Source of the DNA: an uncultured Eubacteriales bacterium
Lineage (GTDB): Bacteria; Bacillota; Clostridia; Christensenellales; Aristaeellaceae
Assembly: GCA_900318145.1 (NCBI GenBank)
Contig: ONJM01000009.1
Span: 62,001-126,000, forward strand
Length of the DNA: 64,000 nucleotides
Reading direction: 5' to 3'
The translations under genes and the position numbers were made by a program. How positions within the stretch are numbered: position 1 is the stretch's first letter; every line of letters begins with the position of its first letter. Positions 48,046 through 62,864 of the stretch are shown in pieces. Under the pieces are notes generated by a model. It searched no databases, was not told the DNA's origin, and saw nothing but the letters and a program-made list of their open reading frames with translations.

Positions 48046-48792
48046 ATGAAACGGATTCTCTCCCTGCTGATGCTGCTGGTGACGGTGTTCTGCGCTTCCT
48101 CCGCCGGAGCGGCCGGATCGAAGGCCTCGCCGACGCCGCCTCCCGCGGAGCTGGACGAAACCTTCACGGAAGAGATCCCCTTCGAAATTCAGAACCTGCT
48201 GGACATCGTCCGTACCGAGCTGGAGGAGACCGGCGGGAAAAACCTGAAGAAGAAAAACAAGTACACTGCCTGGTTCAATCAGTATGAGTGGGAATGGTGC
48301 GCCGGATTTGTCACCTGGTGCATGAAGGAAGCAGGCATTCCCCAGGAGGATTACCGCACGATCGAACCCGCGGAGAAGGAAGGCGTCTATCACGCCACCG
48401 CCTCCGCCCCCGGCAAGATGGTGGAAGGCTACTCCCGCATGTACCGGACCACCATGATCCCCCGGAAGGGCTTCATCGCCGTTTACGGCAGCAAAAACTA
48501 CGGAAAATTCTGGCATGTGGGCTTCGTGTATGATGTGGAAAAGCTCGATAACGGCCGGCTCCGCCTCACCACCATCGAGGGAAATGTGAACAACCACAGC
48601 GTATGCATGTTTGTCCGGGATTATGATCCCCGCAGCGAAAAGAAAACCTCCAACTTTTTCCAGGTGCCAAAGGACGAACGCGTCCGGGAGGAGGATAAGA
48701 CTTTCTCCTACAAGTTCACCTACAATGACAAAACCCAGTATGTAACGATGTTCCTGATGCCCTGGGTCCCGGAGTCCGCCGGAGAGGAGTAA
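48046..48792 (+). CDS. Exported CHAP-domain amidase/peptidase
   Basis: A 248-residue secreted protein: signal peptide (MKRILSLLMLLVTVFCASSA), a proline-rich linker, then a CHAP-type cysteine hydrolase. The likely nucleophile is Cys85 in EWEWCAGFVTWCMKEAGI, and the partner histidine is His157 in KFWHVGFVYDV. The later segment RLTTIEGNVNNH fits the third position. Such enzymes cut peptide bonds of peptidoglycan. The ATG at 48046 is the only in-frame start near the signal peptide; the ribosome site GAAAGGA is rather far. A strong terminator follows. Confidence 0.85.
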   Translation: MKRILSLLMLLVTVFCASSAGAAGSKASPTPPPAELDETFTEEIPFEIQNLLDIVRTELEETGGKNLKKKNKYTAWFNQYEWEWCAGFVTWCMKEAGIPQEDYRTIEPAEKEGVYHATASAPGKMVEGYSRMYRTTMIPRKGFIAVYGSKNYGKFWHVGFVYDVEKLDNGRLRLTTIEGNVNNHSVCMFVRDYDPRSEKKTSNFFQVPKDERVREEDKTFSYKFTYNDKTQYVTMFLMPWVPESAGEE

Positions 48793-48805: not shown

Positions 48806-48845
48806 GCACCGGATCTCCCGAAGAAGGAGATCCGGTGCTGTTTTT
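48806..48845 (+). terminator. Rho-independent terminator after the CHAP gene
   Basis: A 13-base perfect stem (GCACCGGATCTCC at 48806-48818, complement at 48826-48838, seven-base loop) is followed by TGTTTTT. Confidence 0.9.
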
Positions 48846-49008: not shown

Positions 49009-52000
49009 ATGAGCAATATGGATATTCTGCAGGTCAGCGCGCGTCTGGAGGAAGACCGCCGGCTCTGCGTCCTGTTTGACATTCTGCGGGATTACGGGGA
49101 CACGCCTGCCGCTCTCTGGCTGAAGGGAGACAAGGAGCTGTCCCTTTCCTTCGCGGAAATGACCCGCCGGGCGGACGATTACGCCGCGTATCTTACCGCC
49201 AATACGCCTGAAGGCGGCTGGATCGCCATCGCCGTGGACACCTGCCCCAACTGGCCCACCCTGTTCTGGGGCGTCATCCGTTCAGGGCACAACGTGCTGC
49301 TGCTGGACGCCTCCGCGGCGGACAGTATGGTGCAGAGCCTCCTGGAGGAAGCGGGCTGCAAAGTGATCATCTCCCGCAAGCCCCGGGGGCTGACCGGCGA
49401 TATCCGGCAGATCGACTATAAAGCCGTCGCCGACTCGCCGCGCACCATCGGCTTCACCCCTGTCTGGGGCGATTATGTGGCCATGTGCACCAGCGGAACC
49501 ACCGGCCGCAGCCGGATCTTCGCCTATTCCGGCGCGGCAGTCTGCGAACAGGCGCTGGCCACCGTGCAGATTCACCGGGAGAACACCCGGATCATCCGGG
49601 AGGATAACCGCGGCCGCCGCGCGCTGGCTTTCCTGCCTTTCCATCATGTGCTGGGTTTTATGGCCAACGTTGTGCTGGTTCCCTTCTGCGGCGCTGCCAA
49701 CGTGTACCTGCCGGACCGGACGCCCAATTCCATCATGAACGTCTGCCGTCACTTCCCGCCCAACCTGCTGATCGTCGTGCCGCTTGTCGGCAACAACCTG
49801 ATCAAGTCCCTGAAGAAATCGGTCAAAAAGGAAAAGCCCTTCAGGCGCTGGCTTTTTAAAGTTTCCTCCGCCCTGTCGCTGGGCGTGCAGTCCGTGGCGC
49901 CGTCTTTCGGCCTGCGCCTCGCGGAAAAAAAGCTTTTTGCTTCCGTTGATTCCCGCCTGCTGGGCACTGAGGTGGACGTGGTGATTCTCGGCGGCAGCCA
50001 TACGCCGCTGGAAACCCTGCGCACCCTGAACGCCCTGGGGTACTACACCGTCAACGGTTTCGGAATGACCGAAACCGCCATCAACGGTTTTGAAACCTCC
50101 CTGAGCCTGCGCAAAAGGCTGAACGGCTCTGTCGGCGCCACCCTCGGCGCCGCCGAGTACCGCATTGCCGGCGGGGAAAACGCCGCGGGGGAACTGCAGA
50201 TCCGCGGTGCCGGCATTCATTCCGGCCGCGTTGTGAAGGGCGAAATCCTTCCGCCGGATACGCTGGACGGCGGCTGGTTCCCGACCGGCGACGTCGCGAA
50301 GATGGACGCTTCCGGCCGTGTTTTCATCAAAGGGCGCCTGAAGGATGTCATCATCAACGAATCCGGTGAAAACGTCTATCCGGATGATCTGGAGGATTCC
50401 TTCGCTTCCCTTCCCGGCGTGGAGCAGCTCTGCGTGGTGGGCTTCCCCCGCAACAAGCGGGATAACAACGAGGACGTGGTCCTCGTGCTGAATGTCGGCG
50501 AGAACTACACCGACAAGAATTACCTGAACGCGCTGGCCGGCAGAATCGCCGCGGTCAACGCGCGGCTCCCCCTCTACGCCCAGCTGGACCGGGCGCTCGT
50601 CACACCCATGTCCCTGCCCCTGGTCAGCGGAATCAAGGTCAAGCGGATAGAGCTGAAGCGCCTGTATGAAGAGAAGGAACTGATCTACAAGGAGCTGGAT
50701 CTCCGGGCGCAGAGCGCCGGCGCGGAAGTGGCCGTTTCCGAAAAAGCCCGCACCAAGTCCGCCGTGCAGGATGAAATCCGCAGGAAGGTCCGGGCGATGT
50801 ACGCGGAAGCCCTGGATATCCCGGAGAAGGAAATCTCCGACAGCGCGAATTTCATCGAGGATCTGCAGGGCGACAGCCTCCAGGTGCTCAGTATTGCCCT
50901 GAAAGCCGAAGAGGAATGGGGAATCACCATTCCCGCCGAAGAATACGGCCAGTGCGCCACCGTGGAGAGCATGTCCCGCGTGGTGGAGGATCTGCTGAAC
51001 GGCACCGCCGATACCGGCAAACCACGGGAACGCGTTCCCGTGCGTCCCATCACGCGCTTCGAGGATTCCCCCGAATACCTGCATTTCCTGGAACGCCAGA
51101 AGGCGCTCGTCGGAAACGGTGACAATCCCTATTTCGTCGCCCATGAGTCGCCCCTGCTGGATACCGGCATCGTCGACGGAAAGGAAATTCTCGAATTCGG
51201 CAGCTACAATTATGTCGGAATGAGCGGCCGAAAGGAAGTCATGGACGCCGCGAAGGCTGCCATCGACAAATACGGCACCAGCGCCAGCGGCAGCCGCCTG
51301 CTGGCCGGTGAAAAAATGATCCACAAGGAGCTGGAAAAAGAACTGGCCGACTGGAAGCATACCGAGGACGCCATCGTCTGCGTCGGCGGCCATTCCACCA
51401 ATGTCACCTTCGTGGGCAACTTCTGCGGCAAAAATGACCTGATTCTTTACGACGCCCTGGCCCACAATTCCATCGAGCAGGGCTGCAAGCTGAGCGACGC
51501 GACGTCCCGGCCCTTCCCCCACAGTGATGTGGCGGCGCTGGAAACCATCCTGAAGAGCCAGCGCGCCTATTTCGAAAAAGTCCTTATCGTCATTGAGGGT
51601 GCCTACAGCATGGACGGCGATATCGCTCCCGTGCCGGATTTTGTCCGTGTCAAGAAGGAGTACGGCTGCTTCCTCATGGTGGACGAGGCCCACAGCGCCT
51701 GCGTCATCGGCGAGCACGGCGGCGGCGTGGACGAGTACTTCAATCTGGACGGCAATGATATCGATATCAAGTACGGCACCCTTTCCAAGGGCCTGGGCAC
51801 CTGCGGCGGCTATCTGGCCGGAAAGAAGTGCCTGATTGATTACCTACGGTACAATATGCCCGGCTTTGTCTTCTCCGTCGGTATTTCCCCGGCGCTTGCC
51901 GCCGGCTCCCTGGCCGCCATCCGTACCCTGCGCAGCCACCCGGAGATCATGGAACACCTGCGCACCGCGATCCGTTCTTTCACCGAGAGTGCCAAACGCC

Positions 52001-52275
52001 GCCACCTGGACATCTGCCTGGCAGGCGAAACCGCCGTCCTTCCCGTTCTGGTCGGCAAGGACGAGGACGCGTGGTTCCTGTCCAACGAACTGAAAAAGCG
52101 GGGAGTCAGCGTTCCCCCCGCCATGTATCCCGCCGTTCCGAAGGGCAAAGCCCGCCTCCGCTTCTGCGTGATCAGCGAACATAAGCCGGAGCAGATCGAA
52201 CGCGCCCTGGATATTCTGGAAAGCACCGCCGCGGAATTCGGCATCGAACTCCCGCGCCGGAACTATGATCAGTAA
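49009..52275 (+). CDS. Adenylation - acyl carrier - alpha-oxoamine synthase trimodular fusion
   Basis: A 1088-residue enzyme with three parts. Residues 1-565 are an AMP-forming acyl-activating domain: TSGTTGRSR (161-169), GMTET (352-356), TGD (426-428), GRLKD (442-446) and a lysine near 543-545 in SGIKVKR. Residues about 585-665 are an acyl carrier domain with the phosphopantetheine serine Ser623 in GDSLQVL. Residues about 700-1088 are a PLP enzyme of the BioF/KBL/serine palmitoyltransferase group: GSYNYVGMSG, GTSASGSRLLAG, ALAHNS, DEAHS (892-896) and the PLP lysine Lys927 in TLSKGLGT. Logic of the parts: a carboxylic acid is activated, tethered and condensed with an amino acid, losing CO2, to give an alpha-amino ketone. 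A sphingoid-base-like lipid is one option. The ATG is five bases after AAGGAGG. Confidence 0.9.
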   Translation: MSNMDILQVSARLEEDRRLCVLFDILRDYGDTPAALWLKGDKELSLSFAEMTRRADDYAAYLTANTPEGGWIAIAVDTCPNWPTLFWGVIRSGHNVLLLDASAADSMVQSLLEEAGCKVIISRKPRGLTGDIRQIDYKAVADSPRTIGFTPVWGDYVAMCTSGTTGRSRIFAYSGAAVCEQALATVQIHRENTRIIREDNRGRRALAFLPFHHVLGFMANVVLVPFCGAANVYLPDRTPNSIMNVCRHFPPNLLIVVPLVGNNLIKSLKKSVKKEKPFRRWLFKVSSALSLGVQSVAPSFGLRLAEKKLFASVDSRLLGTEVDVVILGGSHTPLETLRTLNALGYYTVNGFGMTETAINGFETSLSLRKRLNGSVGATLGAAEYRIAGGENAAGELQIRGAGIHSGRVVKGEILPPDTLDGGWFPTGDVAKMDASGRVFIKGRLKDVIINESGENVYPDDLEDSFASLPGVEQLCVVGFPRNKRDNNEDVVLVLNVGENYTDKNYLNALAGRIAAVNARLPLYAQLDRALVTPMSLPLVSGIKVKRIELKRLYEEKELIYKELDLRAQSAGAEVAVSEKARTKSAVQDEIRRKVRAMYAEALDIPEKEISDSANFIEDLQGDSLQVLSIALKAEEEWGITIPAEEYGQCATVESMSRVVEDLLNGTADTGKPRERVPVRPITRFEDSPEYLHFLERQKALVGNGDNPYFVAHESPLLDTGIVDGKEILEFGSYNYVGMSGRKEVMDAAKAAIDKYGTSASGSRLLAGEKMIHKELEKELADWKHTEDAIVCVGGHSTNVTFVGNFCGKNDLILYDALAHNSIEQGCKLSDATSRPFPHSDVAALETILKSQRAYFEKVLIVIEGAYSMDGDIAPVPDFVRVKKEYGCFLMVDEAHSACVIGEHGGGVDEYFNLDGNDIDIKYGTLSKGLGTCGGYLAGKKCLIDYLRYNMPGFVFSVGISPALAAGSLAAIRTLRSHPEIMEHLRTAIRSFTESAKRRHLDICLAGETAVLPVLVGKDEDAWFLSNELKKRGVSVPPAMYPAVPKGKARLRFCVISEHKPEQIERALDILESTAAEFGIELPRRNYDQ

Positions 52276-52323
52276 TCTCATTATCTGACGGCCGCCGGCC
52301 GCTGTTATGAGGAGGATATTGTT

Positions 52324-52461
52324 ATGGAAACCGGAGTAGTTGTAGCCATCGCCGTCGTTCTCTTTATTGCTGTCTTCGCGGTTCTGATCTGCGTTTTCGG
52401 CAGCGTGGCCGGAACAGTCAGTGCCATCAAGCACACCAATGATGAGGACACCCAGGCGTAA
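52324..52461 (+). CDS. 45-residue single-helix membrane peptide
   Basis: METGVVVAIAVVLFIAVFAV continues into LICVFGSVAGTVSAIKHTND and ends EDTQA. One hydrophobic helix spans about residues 5-30, with a short charged C-terminus. GAGGAGG precedes the ATG, and the gene starts 48 bases after the trimodular enzyme, before any terminator, so it is co-transcribed with it. No family is recognised. It may anchor or accompany the lipid-like product pathway, but that is speculation. Confidence 0.65.
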   Translation: METGVVVAIAVVLFIAVFAVLICVFGSVAGTVSAIKHTNDEDTQA

Positions 52462-52485
52462 ACGCGGAGCCTGAGGCGGCATCGG

Positions 52486-52532
52486 AAAAGGGCGCGGACA
52501 GATTCCTGTCAGGATCTGTCCTGCGCCCTTTT
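52486..52532. terminator. Bidirectional terminator between the oxoamine synthase unit and mnmG
   Basis: AAAAGGGCGCGGACAGAT (52486-52503) pairs with ATCTGTCC-T-GCGCCCTTTT (52514-52532), one bulged base. It has T-runs in both directions and overlaps the mnmG stop codon. Confidence 0.85.
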
Positions 52533-54377
52533 CTGCTTTTCAAGCCATACTGTCAGCACCGCCACATCCGCGGGATTCACGCCCGGGATCCGGCCGGCCG
52601 CCGCCAGCGATACCGGTTTCTGCCGGGCCAGCTTCTGCCGGGCTTCCAGCCGCAGATGCTCAATCTGTTCGTAGGGAATATCCTCCGGCAGCCGGGTTTC
52701 CTCCATGCGGCGCGCCTGTTCGATCATATGCTTCTGCTTCTCAAGATAACCGGCGTATTTTACGGCAATTTCCGCCTGTTCCGCGGCGGCGGGCGAAACC
52801 GCCTGCCATTCCGGTTTCATTTCCCGCAGGTCCGTAAGGGAGATTTCCGGCCGGCGCAGCAGCTCTTCCGCGTTCAGGGATCCCGCTGTCTCCGGCTGGC
52901 CCCTGCCCCGCAGGAAAGCGTTCAGCGCTTCATTCGGCGCGAATCGCGTCGTGCGAAGCTCCCGCAGCAGTTTGTCCGTTTCTTCCCGTTTCCGCCTGGT
53001 CCTTTCCAGCCTTTCCTCTGACGCCAGTCCCGCCCGGAAACCGATTTCCGTCAGCCGCAGGTCCGCGTTGTCCTGCCGCAGGTACAGCCGGTGCTCCGCG
53101 CGGGAGGTCATCATCCGGTAGGGTTCGTCGGTTCCCTTGGTGGTCAGGTCGTCCGTCAGCACACCGATATACGCCATATCCCGGGTCAGGATCACCTGTT
53201 CCTTTCCCTGGATCCGCAGCGCGGCGTTCATGCCGGCCAGCAGTCCCTGACAGGCCGCTTCCTCGTATCCGCTGGTGCCGTTGATCTGCCCCGCGAAATA
53301 CAGCCCGCCGATCCGCAGGCTTTCCAGCGTCGGCCGCAGCTCCAGGCTGTCGATACAGTCGTATTCGATCGCGTATCCCAGCCGGGTGAACTCACATCTC
53401 CGCAGGCCCGGGATCGTCCGGTACATGGCCCACTGCACATCCTCCGGCATGGAAGTGGACATGCCCTGCACATACCACTCCCGGCTTTCCTTCCCTTCCG
53501 GCTCCAGGAAAATCTGGTGCCGGTCCTTATCCGCGAAGCGAACCACCTTATCCTCAATGCTCGGGCAGTATCTCGGCCCGATCCCGTGGATTTTCCCGCT
53601 GTACAGCGGCGCCCGGTCCAGGTTGTCAAGGATAATCCGGTGCGTCTCCGGCGTTGTCCATGTCAGGTAGCAGCTGTAGGTGTTTTCCAGTTTCCTGTCC
53701 GTCAGGAAGGAAAACGGAACAACGGGCTCGTCGCCTTTCTGCTCCTGCATCTCGTCAAAATCCACCGACCGTACGTCGACCCGCGCCGGCGTCCCGGTCT
53801 TGAACCTGCGCAGCGTAAATCCGAGCTCCGCCAGGCTGCCGGAAAGCAGGGACGCGTTCATAAGTCCCTGGGGCCCGCCGTCATGCCGGTGTTCTCCGAT
53901 GATGATGCTGCCCTGCAGGTATACGCCGGTGGCCGCCACCACGGCGCGGCAGGGAATCCGCGCGCCCGTGGAGGTAGTCACAGCGGTCACTCTGTTGTTT
54001 TCTGTCTCAATGGAAGCCGCCTCACCCTGCCGTACCGTCAGGTGTCCGCAGGTCATCAGCGCCTTCCGCATCCGGTTCTGGTATGCCTGCTTGTCCGCCT
54101 GCGCCCGCAGGGAATGGACCGCGGGCCCCTTTCCCATATTCAGCATCCGGCTCTGCAGGAACGTATCGTCAATCGCGAGGCCCATCTCGCCGCCCAGCGC
54201 GTCCAGTTCCCGTACCAGGTGGCCTTTGGCGGAACCTCCGATTACCGGATTGCAGGCCATCAGCGCTATGCCGTCCATGTTCAGCGTCAGCAGCAGTGTA
54301 TCGATGCCCATCCGGGCGGCGGCCAGGGCCGCTTCACATCCCGCGTGCCCTGCGCCGATAATAATCAGGTCAGCCAT
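52509..54377 (-). CDS. mnmG: tRNA uridine-5-carboxymethylaminomethyl modification enzyme MnmG (GidA)
   Basis: A 622-residue FAD-dependent tRNA modification enzyme that works with MnmE on the wobble uridine. The FAD motif is IIGAGHAGCEAALAAARMG; other landmarks are MACNPVIGGSAKGHLVRELDALGG, GTPARVDVRSVDF, INGTSGYEEAACQGLLAGMNAA and TSRAEHRLYLRQDNADLRLT. The C-terminal helical region ends in a usual MnmE-contact segment with IPGVNPADVAVL. The start is two bases from the stop of the BIG_2 gene upstream, an odd operon partner; mnmE and rsmG, its frequent neighbours, are not here. Confidence 0.97.
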   Translation of the reverse strand: MADLIIIGAGHAGCEAALAAARMGIDTLLLTLNMDGIALMACNPVIGGSAKGHLVRELDALGGEMGLAIDDTFLQSRMLNMGKGPAVHSLRAQADKQAYQNRMRKALMTCGHLTVRQGEAASIETENNRVTAVTTSTGARIPCRAVVAATGVYLQGSIIIGEHRHDGGPQGLMNASLLSGSLAELGFTLRRFKTGTPARVDVRSVDFDEMQEQKGDEPVVPFSFLTDRKLENTYSCYLTWTTPETHRIILDNLDRAPLYSGKIHGIGPRYCPSIEDKVVRFADKDRHQIFLEPEGKESREWYVQGMSTSMPEDVQWAMYRTIPGLRRCEFTRLGYAIEYDCIDSLELRPTLESLRIGGLYFAGQINGTSGYEEAACQGLLAGMNAALRIQGKEQVILTRDMAYIGVLTDDLTTKGTDEPYRMMTSRAEHRLYLRQDNADLRLTEIGFRAGLASEERLERTRRKREETDKLLRELRTTRFAPNEALNAFLRGRGQPETAGSLNAEELLRRPEISLTDLREMKPEWQAVSPAAAEQAEIAVKYAGYLEKQKHMIEQARRMEETRLPEDIPYEQIEHLRLEARQKLARQKPVSLAAAGRIPGVNPADVAVLTVWLEKQKRAQDRS

Positions 54378-61986: not shown

Positions 61987-62864
61987 CCGTTCCTGCCTCC
62001 CTGTGCCCCGGCGCTGCCTGCTTCCAGCCGCCGGCCGCTGTAAATCGTATCCGCCAGCCGGCCCAGCTCCTCCAGGGTCAGCTTCTCGCCGCGGATCATC
62101 GGATCGATGCCCGCCTGCTCCAGCCAGCCCTCCGCTTCCTGCCGTTCCGTCCGGAACACGGCGCAAAGGCTGTTCAGCAGGGTCTTGCGCCGCAGCGCGA
62201 AAGCGGCGTTCACCGTACGGAAAAACATTTCCTCACTGCGCACCTTCACCGCCGGTTCCGCCCGCAGCGGCAGAACCACGAAGGTGCTGTCCACCTTCGG
62301 CGGCGGTGTAAAGCATTCCGCCGGAACCTCCATAGCCCGCCGCGGTTCGCACATGTACCGGCAGCGCACCGCCAGAGGTCCCCATCCTTCCCCGCCCGGG
62401 GAGGACAGAATCTTGTCCGCCACTTCCTTCTGCACCATCAGGGCAAGCCGGCTGACGGGAAGGCCGCATGTCAGCAGCCGCTGAATCAGCGGCGTTGTGA
62501 TATAGTACGGAATATTTGCAACCACGGCAAACGGTTTCCGAAGTCCCTCCGTCACCTTCCGAAGATCCAGCTCCATGATGTCGCCCTGAACGGCGTGCCA
62601 GTTCTTTTCCCCGGCCAGGAACGCCTCCAGCAGCGGGATCAGGCGTCCATCCAGCTCCACGCTCACCACCTGGTGCGCCGCCGCGCAAAGATGCTTCGTC
62701 AGGCTGCCGCACCCCGGGCCGATCTCCAGCACGTCCTCCGTATCCGTCACGCCGGCCGCCTCTGTCAGCGCCGCCAGCAGCCCGTCGTCGTAGATGAAGT
62801 TCTGCCCCAGCGACTGTTTGTACCGCAGATTGCTTTCCCGGATCCGTTCCTTCGTCTTGCTCAT
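61983..62864 (-). CDS. rsmA: 16S rRNA dimethyladenosine transferase RsmA (KsgA)
   Basis: A 293-residue methyltransferase that dimethylates two adenines near the 3' end of 16S rRNA. The landmarks are SLGQNFIYDDGLLAAL, the SAM motif VLEIGPGCGSLTKHLC, ISVELDGRLIP-type motif II (read VVSVELDGRLIPLLEAF) and the catalytic NIPYYITTPLI. The C-terminal domain with MFFRTVNAAFALRRKTLLNS is typical. It is first in the operon, with a promoter at 62893-62921. Confidence 0.97.
   Translation of the reverse strand: MSKTKERIRESNLRYKQSLGQNFIYDDGLLAALTEAAGVTDTEDVLEIGPGCGSLTKHLCAAAHQVVSVELDGRLIPLLEAFLAGEKNWHAVQGDIMELDLRKVTEGLRKPFAVVANIPYYITTPLIQRLLTCGLPVSRLALMVQKEVADKILSSPGGEGWGPLAVRCRYMCEPRRAMEVPAECFTPPPKVDSTFVVLPLRAEPAVKVRSEEMFFRTVNAAFALRRKTLLNSLCAVFRTERQEAEGWLEQAGIDPMIRGEKLTLEELGRLADTIYSGRRLEAGSAGAQGGRNG

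Follow-up and report, generated by a model that had tools for sequence, protein, structure and literature searches.

An acyl-activating, carrier and oxoamine synthase fusion

The DNA analysed here, which we refer to as the window, is a 64,000-nucleotide stretch (positions 62,001 to 126,000) of contig ONJM01000009.1 from an uncultured Eubacteriales bacterium of the Aristaeellaceae, the source genome being a 3.24 Mb draft that is 88% complete. A single open frame on the + strand (49009-52275, 1088 amino acids, no internal stops) joins an AMP-forming acyl-activating domain, a carrier domain and an alpha-oxoamine synthase (AOS) dependent on pyridoxal phosphate (PLP), and we refer to this gene and its product as the fusion. 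A first-pass annotation made from the sequence letters had proposed such a three-module polypeptide, and Pfam agrees, with matches to AMP-binding (residues 28-406, 118 bits), PP-binding and Aminotran_1_2 (residues 726-1069, 152.6 bits); a further match to AMP-binding_C_3 (residues 446-535, 21.2 bits) is marginal against its cut-off of 20.8. The order PF00501, PF00550, PF00155 is that of the A-CP-AOS proteins in PMC3870968. The carrier serine, the PLP lysine and the DEAHS motif (residues 892-896) lie exactly where that annotation had placed them. The features of the gene are:

49009..52275, + strand: whole gene, acyl-activating, carrier and AOS domains (1088 amino acids; Pfam, orthologues)
49009..50733, + strand: AMP-forming acyl-activating domain, residues 1-575 (Pfam, motifs, AlphaFold model)
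50785..50982, + strand: carrier (PP-binding) domain, residues 593-658 (Pfam, 41.9 bits)
50875..50877, + strand: Ser623 (GDSL), phosphopantetheine attachment site (52 of 52 rows)
51049..52272, + strand: AOS domain, residues 681-1088 (Pfam, tree, solved relatives)
51787..51789, + strand: Lys927, the PLP lysine (50 of 52 rows)

Residue conservation was counted over 52 rows of fusion sequences, many of them from close relatives. Ser623, Lys543, Asp892, His895 and Arg1051 are kept in every row, whilst Lys927, His819 and Asn734 are kept in 50, the lysine and His819 being lost only in loci L097 and L098 (genomes G263 and G198, family f31). The ratio of non-synonymous to synonymous change (dN/dS) over nine pairs was 0.016-0.068 in the AOS domain, 0-0.14 in the carrier and 0.035-0.22 in the acyl-activating domain: amino acid replacements are strongly disfavoured in each of the three. 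The fusion is not due to chance, because all three Pfam domains are still recognised in orthologues with as little as 34% identity and because dN/dS is low in each domain, and these comparisons indicate that the fused gene is old and constrained. The L097 and L098 orthologues are 1060 amino acids long and retain the carrier serine, with the PLP lysine and stacking histidine gone; the protein is possibly a pseudo-enzyme with a new role.

The acyl-activating domain carries the motifs TSGTT (residues 161-165), GMTE (352-355) and TGD (426-428), the first being found in 49 of the 51 rows with letters there and replaced by TSGST in the other two; Lys543, near the end of the domain, we take to be its catalytic lysine. 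An AlphaFold model of residues 1-575 (mean pLDDT confidence 86.6) ranked MatB, a Mycobacterium tuberculosis fatty acyl-coenzyme A (CoA) synthetase (FadD13) and feruloyl-CoA synthetase highest among solved folds, with MenE lower. The best 50 of 634 folds (E up to 0.001) were CoA ligases, luciferases, amide synthetases and other adenylating enzymes, none of them described as a fatty acyl-AMP ligase (FAAL). These fold matches support acyl activation and point to no particular chain length. The predicted structure of the full-length chain (pLDDT 75.3, pTM 0.47) is too weak for placing the domains relative to each other.

Relationships and catalytic type of the oxoamine synthase domain

In a tree of 56 AOS rows (LG+G4, with long-branch warnings for several references), a branch supported at 100/99 has on one side the fusion AOS, seven AOS that stand alone in genomes of the same genus and six references, and on the other E. 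coli serine palmitoyltransferase (SPT), KBL, BioF and eight further AOS of the order. Five of those six references lie within, behind or beside a polyketide or fatty acid synthase gene, as seen by Pfam in Planktothrix, Streptomyces, the Clostridia genome G775 and S. meliloti and by annotation in Paraburkholderia; the Methylobacterium record is unannotated. By this tree, the AOS domain groups with synthase-linked AOS and not with the E. coli enzymes SPT, KBL and BioF.

Membership of the domain in the SPT, BioF or KBL families was rejected, as all of its scores fall under the curated cut-offs. Against the NCBIfam SPT models NF047599, NF047600 and NF047603 it reached 270, 288 and 231 bits (cut-offs 500, 640 and 670), against the bioF model 338 (cut-off 426) and against glycine C-acetyltransferase 291 (cut-off 460). 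As a control, E. coli SPT scored 599 against the 500 of NF047599 and itself missed NF047600 and NF047603. At the level of single residues, the conserved active-site Asn, His, Lys and Arg of the SPT family (PMC9304779) have their likely counterparts in Asn734, His819, Lys927 and Arg1051 in an alignment with solved SPT chains, in which Asn734 meets the Asn of 2x8u and the Asn of 3a2b stands one position earlier. The AOS domain fits SPT-type catalysis at these four positions. SulA, for its part, prefers acyl groups on acyl carrier protein (ACP) (PMC9304779), and the position separating it from SPT is Lys281, occupied by Ala in SPT.

Distribution of the fusion

Full-length orthologues extend beyond the genus of the source genome to other members of the family and to two additional families, a search for the architecture across genomes being one of the checks that the first-pass annotation had suggested. 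In a first set of 37 genomes from the genus, the full fusion is present in 28, the AOS alone (63-64% identity) in seven and neither in two, which are 71% and 58% complete; two further fusion-bearing genomes bring the full fusion to 30 of 39 and the AOS at least to 37 of 39. Elsewhere in the family it occurs in 14 of 26 genomes, at 53-60% identity. Beyond the family, it was found in family f21 (G141, G106 and G124 at 46%, and G084 as two contig pieces) and in family f31 (G253 and G274 at 43-44%, G263 and G198 at 34%), and in G041 (family f6) its halves lie on two contig ends. Stops flagged in G028, G176 and G335 leave the gene intact, with open frames of 1085, 1090 and 1105 amino acids. The 23 named loci are from uncultured Clostridia or Clostridiales, with the digestive tract of sheep, goat, water buffalo and yak as stated sources.

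At a threshold of E 1e-80, a sample of 391 genomes of the class yielded the full fusion in the source genome alone, and a sample of 398 genomes of the phylum yielded no further full fusion. Plasmids gave no record with one place covering 80% of the query. Partial architectures were nonetheless found. Three genomes of the class sample encode a 581-589 amino acid activating protein with no carrier match (L121-L123), whilst two genomes of one genus in the phylum sample encode a carrier-AOS protein that has no activating domain (54-56% identity; G833 by Pfam, G1127 by alignment). Activating-carrier proteins that have no AOS are present in related Clostridia (G1101 by Pfam, and loci L071, L072 and L202) and, judged by match span alone, in G056 (two), G046, G365, G333 and G392.

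These partial forms bear on whether the two halves work together at all. The AOS might use pooled acyl-CoA or acyl-AcpP, the activating and carrier half serving some other acceptor and the fusion ensuring co-regulation, and both the seven genomes with AOS alone and the activating-carrier proteins that have no AOS (G1101 by Pfam, the others by match span) would fit such an arrangement. However, the lone AOS, which start at the linker (at about residue 678 of the fusion) and have differing genomic surroundings, nest within the fusion clade; the fusion thus looks ancestral, and these seven genomes appear to have lost the activating and carrier part. A carrier with an intact serine stands on the same chain as the AOS in all 52 fusion rows, the seven lone AOS being without one, and the didomain of G833 and G1127 keeps the carrier joined to the AOS. 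We consider such independent halves quite improbable.

A reductase accompanies the fusion in relatives

The first-pass annotation had the gene standing alone, which does not hold as a general rule: in nine of the 14 fusion-bearing family members outside the genus, a short-chain dehydrogenase/reductase (SDR) gene lies directly upstream on the same strand. The spacing ranges between an overlap of 4 bases and a gap of about 31 bases to a possible start of the fusion, and four of the nine have an ATG that overlaps the stop of the SDR by 4 bases. That annotation had also suggested looking for a reductase travelling with the enzyme, and this one does: across the 26 family genomes outside the genus, an SDR (at least 44% identity, E <1e-60) accompanies the fusion in 14 of 14 cases and occurs in one of the 12 genomes that lack it (G061), a co-occurrence with a Fisher value of 1.6e-6, uncorrected for kinship. 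One genus has fusion and SDR together in four members and neither in G397, which is 91% complete. The SDR search took in 80 of 97 genomes. In the genus of the source genome the SDR was found in all 31 genomes searched, including the source genome and all seven with a lone AOS (in G024 as two contig-end pieces, each with a weaker E-value than the whole gene), and of the other 23 genomes searched seven had a match, in every case at 38% identity or below.

The SDR of the source genome (C22:16291-17085, on another contig than the fusion) shares 56% identity with an SDR that neighbours the fusion in a relative. Its best match among 211 matching NCBIfam families is the 3-ketodihydrosphingosine reductase NF049977, which we take to be the model for the BT_0972-type reductase, at 217 bits under a cut-off of 400, and the same model ranked first for three of the four SDRs scanned and second for the fourth. 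The protein has the SDR motifs GxxxGxG (as GASSGLG, at residue 8) and YxxxK (as YTASK, at residue 140). BT_0972 itself is the 3-ketosphinganine reductase of Bacteroides (PMC9278070). Judged from these comparisons, a 3-ketosphinganine-reductase-like SDR is a likelier partner of the fusion than the 45-residue membrane peptide encoded downstream of it, which we describe below.

The reductase also bears on the kind of product. The same chemistry could serve a small-molecule route to an alpha-amino ketone or alcohol of short or medium length, such as a signal or a pyrazine or pyrrole precursor, as with AOS of polyketide type. The closest AOS outside these families do lie in or beside polyketide synthases (Planktothrix at 48% identity, the polyketide synthase-AOS of Streptomyces and that of G775), malonyl- and aryl-CoA ligases are among the nearest folds of the activating domain, and the fusion is patchy in the family outside the genus (14 of 26). 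Yet the linked reductase resembles 3-ketosphinganine reductases, 37 of 39 genomes of the genus keep the AOS at least, and the examined loci, where most neighbours are unannotated, showed no recognisable polyketide synthase next to the fusion. A small-molecule product is in our judgement unlikely.

Two observations stand apart from the fusion clade or from the fusion itself. G235 and G046 encode a different AOS (34-36% identity; L172:3182-5151 and L173:4029-6001) followed by an overlapping SDR gene (33-39%), outside the clade. A gene resembling phosphodiester glycosidases comes after the SDR in two genomes of the genus (L133:10288-12131 and L116:1948-3828); in one of these, the source genome, Pfam identifies it and it overlaps the SDR by 4 bases.

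Proposed pathway

We favour, with moderate confidence, a self-loading AOS, a single-chain equivalent of an acyl-ACP synthetase, ACP and SPT, that makes a sphingoid-like amino alcohol. The N-terminal domain would activate a carboxylic acid, probably a fatty acid, with ATP, and the acyl group would be put on the phosphopantetheine of the protein's own carrier domain at Ser623; the PLP domain would then condense this thioester, with loss of CO2, with serine, alanine or glycine as the small amino acid to yield a 2-amino-3-ketone. The 3-ketosphinganine-reductase-like SDR would turn this ketone into a sphingoid-like base, a 2-amino-3-alcohol. Of the ideas in the first-pass annotation, cis loading and delivery come out as the likeliest mechanism and a lipidic amino ketone as the likeliest class of product, in view of the invariant carrier serine, the grouping of the AOS with synthase-linked enzymes and the 3-ketosphinganine-reductase-like SDR that is the operon partner in relatives. 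One gene of the phosphopantetheinyl-transferase family is present, and we count it in favour of self-loading.

Several findings weigh against this proposal. Seven genomes of the genus keep the AOS alone, with a best match to the activating part of at most 49 bits, so that cis loading would be dispensable there, and the AOS itself scores below every curated SPT, BioF and KBL cut-off tested. At the position of SulA Lys281, 30 residues after the PLP lysine, the fusion has Val957 (Val in 48 of 52 rows, Ala in four). The activating domain is just 22% identical to E. coli AasR, an enzyme to which we return below, and its nearest folds are ligases for short, aryl and long acids alike. On the side of the reductase, the four SDRs scanned reach 192-217 bits against the NF049977 cut-off of 400, the SDR does not adjoin the fusion in the examined loci of the genus, and a close SDR is lacking from the eight fusion genomes searched in families f21 and f31 (three have matches at 33-34%, five have none at E 1e-30).

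Sphingolipids are known chiefly from Bacteroidota and Proteobacteria. Sphingolipid genes have been described in some Gram-positive organisms (PMC11087976). The fusion and the SDR together look like the start of a sphingolipid-like pathway, unexpected in this bacterial group. We tentatively suggest, as a possibility we would not yet lean on, that a lineage of rumen and gut Clostridia has its own, independent route to a sphingoid-like membrane lipid or lipid signal, in which a self-loading, carrier-dependent one-chain AOS derived from the polyketide type works with a 3-ketosphinganine-reductase-like SDR and the loading arm was later dropped in some members. If the product is indeed a sphingoid-like base, rumen Clostridia would be a previously unrecognised source of these lipids in animals, and the first step of the pathway would be encoded by a single gene. 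Activator-carrier-AOS, carrier-AOS and AOS alone also form a natural series in which the purpose of an AOS-joined carrier can be addressed directly.

Comparison with known systems

One close parallel is the AasR, AcpR and SPT trio of Caulobacter and E. coli BL21 (PMC9386255), in which AasR loads AcpR and the SPTs of three bacteria prefer acyl-AcpR: there too a dedicated activator, a dedicated carrier and a carrier-preferring AOS lead to a 3-keto long-chain base. However, three proteins do there what a single chain would do here, the fusion AOS is 32% identical to E. coli SPT and on another branch of the tree, the activating domain shares the 22% with AasR given above, and the operon of the trio includes an epimerase-like gene where a classical SDR serves as the presumed reductase here. 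In layout, the fusion resembles the A-CP-PLP2 proteins (AOS type) of Microscilla marina and Blastopirellula marina in Table 2 of PMC3870968, which have the same domains in the same order and to which we liken it by layout alone; these belong to other phyla, and the table gives no product, cluster type or product-defining specificity for them. The main text of that paper nowhere contains the string "clostridi".

On the side of the synthases, the S. meliloti pSymB locus likewise has an AOS followed by an SDR (40-42% and 31% identical to ours), genes that are presumably rkpAGH. There, a gene resembling polyketide or fatty acid synthases precedes the pair, with capsule genes adjacent, and the acyl chain is presumably made by that synthase, where the fusion would activate a free acid. 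The AOS at the end of polyketide synthases in Planktothrix and Streptomyces similarly closes a multidomain chain and shares 45-48% identity over the AOS, with polyketide modules standing where the fusion has its acyl-activating domain; RedN, PigH and SxtA are further AOS of this polyketide synthase-terminal kind. Acyl activation is also fused to an AOS in BioWF (PMC9544090), which differs in working through a CoA thioester on the biotin route, a carrier not being mentioned in the opening of that abstract, and FAAL-ACP didomains have been described (PMC11837247).

The first-pass annotation had presented the enzyme as undescribed, which overstates the case, as the layout appears in Table 2 of PMC3870968 and a carrier-dependent SPT with its dedicated acyl-ACP synthetase has been characterised (PMC9386255). 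Among the matches listed in open-licence literature on the architecture or on sphingolipids of Clostridia and Bacillota, no title or abstract described the fusion enzyme, nor did the consulted parts of PMC8895605, PMC12816596 and PMC11324152. The layout is thus already in print, though apparently uncharacterised, whilst the Clostridia lineage, its depth and the pairing with a reductase look new.

The neighbouring peptide gene and intergenic signals

Three further features flank the fusion:

48806..48838, + strand: terminator-like hairpin after the upstream CHAP-domain gene (terminator scan)
52324..52461, + strand: 45-residue membrane peptide gene, a neighbour in one sub-clade, outside the system (synteny, 6 of 29 loci)
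52475..52545, no strand assigned: strong hairpin with U-rich tail, before the convergent mnmG (-39.6 kcal/mol, z -6.7)

The peptide had been put forward as a companion of the enzyme, and that they form a functional pair would be in keeping with their adjacency on the same strand in the window and five close relatives. These six are, however, the only such cases among 29 testable loci of the genus (those with enough downstream sequence, L036 not being judgeable), the peptide gene not being found beside the fusion in the other 23. Of 28 genomes of the genus searched, 17 hold the peptide gene, and in 12 of these it lies elsewhere in the genome, the fusion being present in 11 of the 12 and not found in G024; in G002 and G022 the two genes are about 1 Mb apart on the same large contig. 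The 45-residue frame is a genuine gene, conserved within the genus, and not a companion of the fusion; as a functional partner the peptide was rejected on synteny and the relatives search, and we give the pairing almost no credence.

The upstream gene (48046-48792) has a CHAP domain by Pfam, and the hairpin at 48806-48838 parts it from the fusion, in a region where the scan gave five sites against 4.6 expected by chance, so that a single site is weak. The promoter and terminator that the first-pass annotation had assigned to the gene fare differently. A sigma-70 consensus scan upstream of the fusion gave no + strand site, leaving the promoter unsupported, whilst a hairpin does exist within 52475-52545, although it is shared with the peptide gene and the convergent mnmG and is not the fusion's own.

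Other neighbouring genes

In G253 and G274 (loci L104 and L105), an iron alcohol dehydrogenase gene lies upstream of the fusion and a DUF362 ferredoxin-like gene downstream, those of G253 being assigned by Pfam and those of G274 likened to them by position and first residues. The carrier-AOS gene of G833 has a CDP-alcohol phosphatidyltransferase gene 126 bases upstream (L200:8490-10718), and a 79% homologue of that transferase occupies the same place in G1127 (L201), a hint of a phospho-head-group step.

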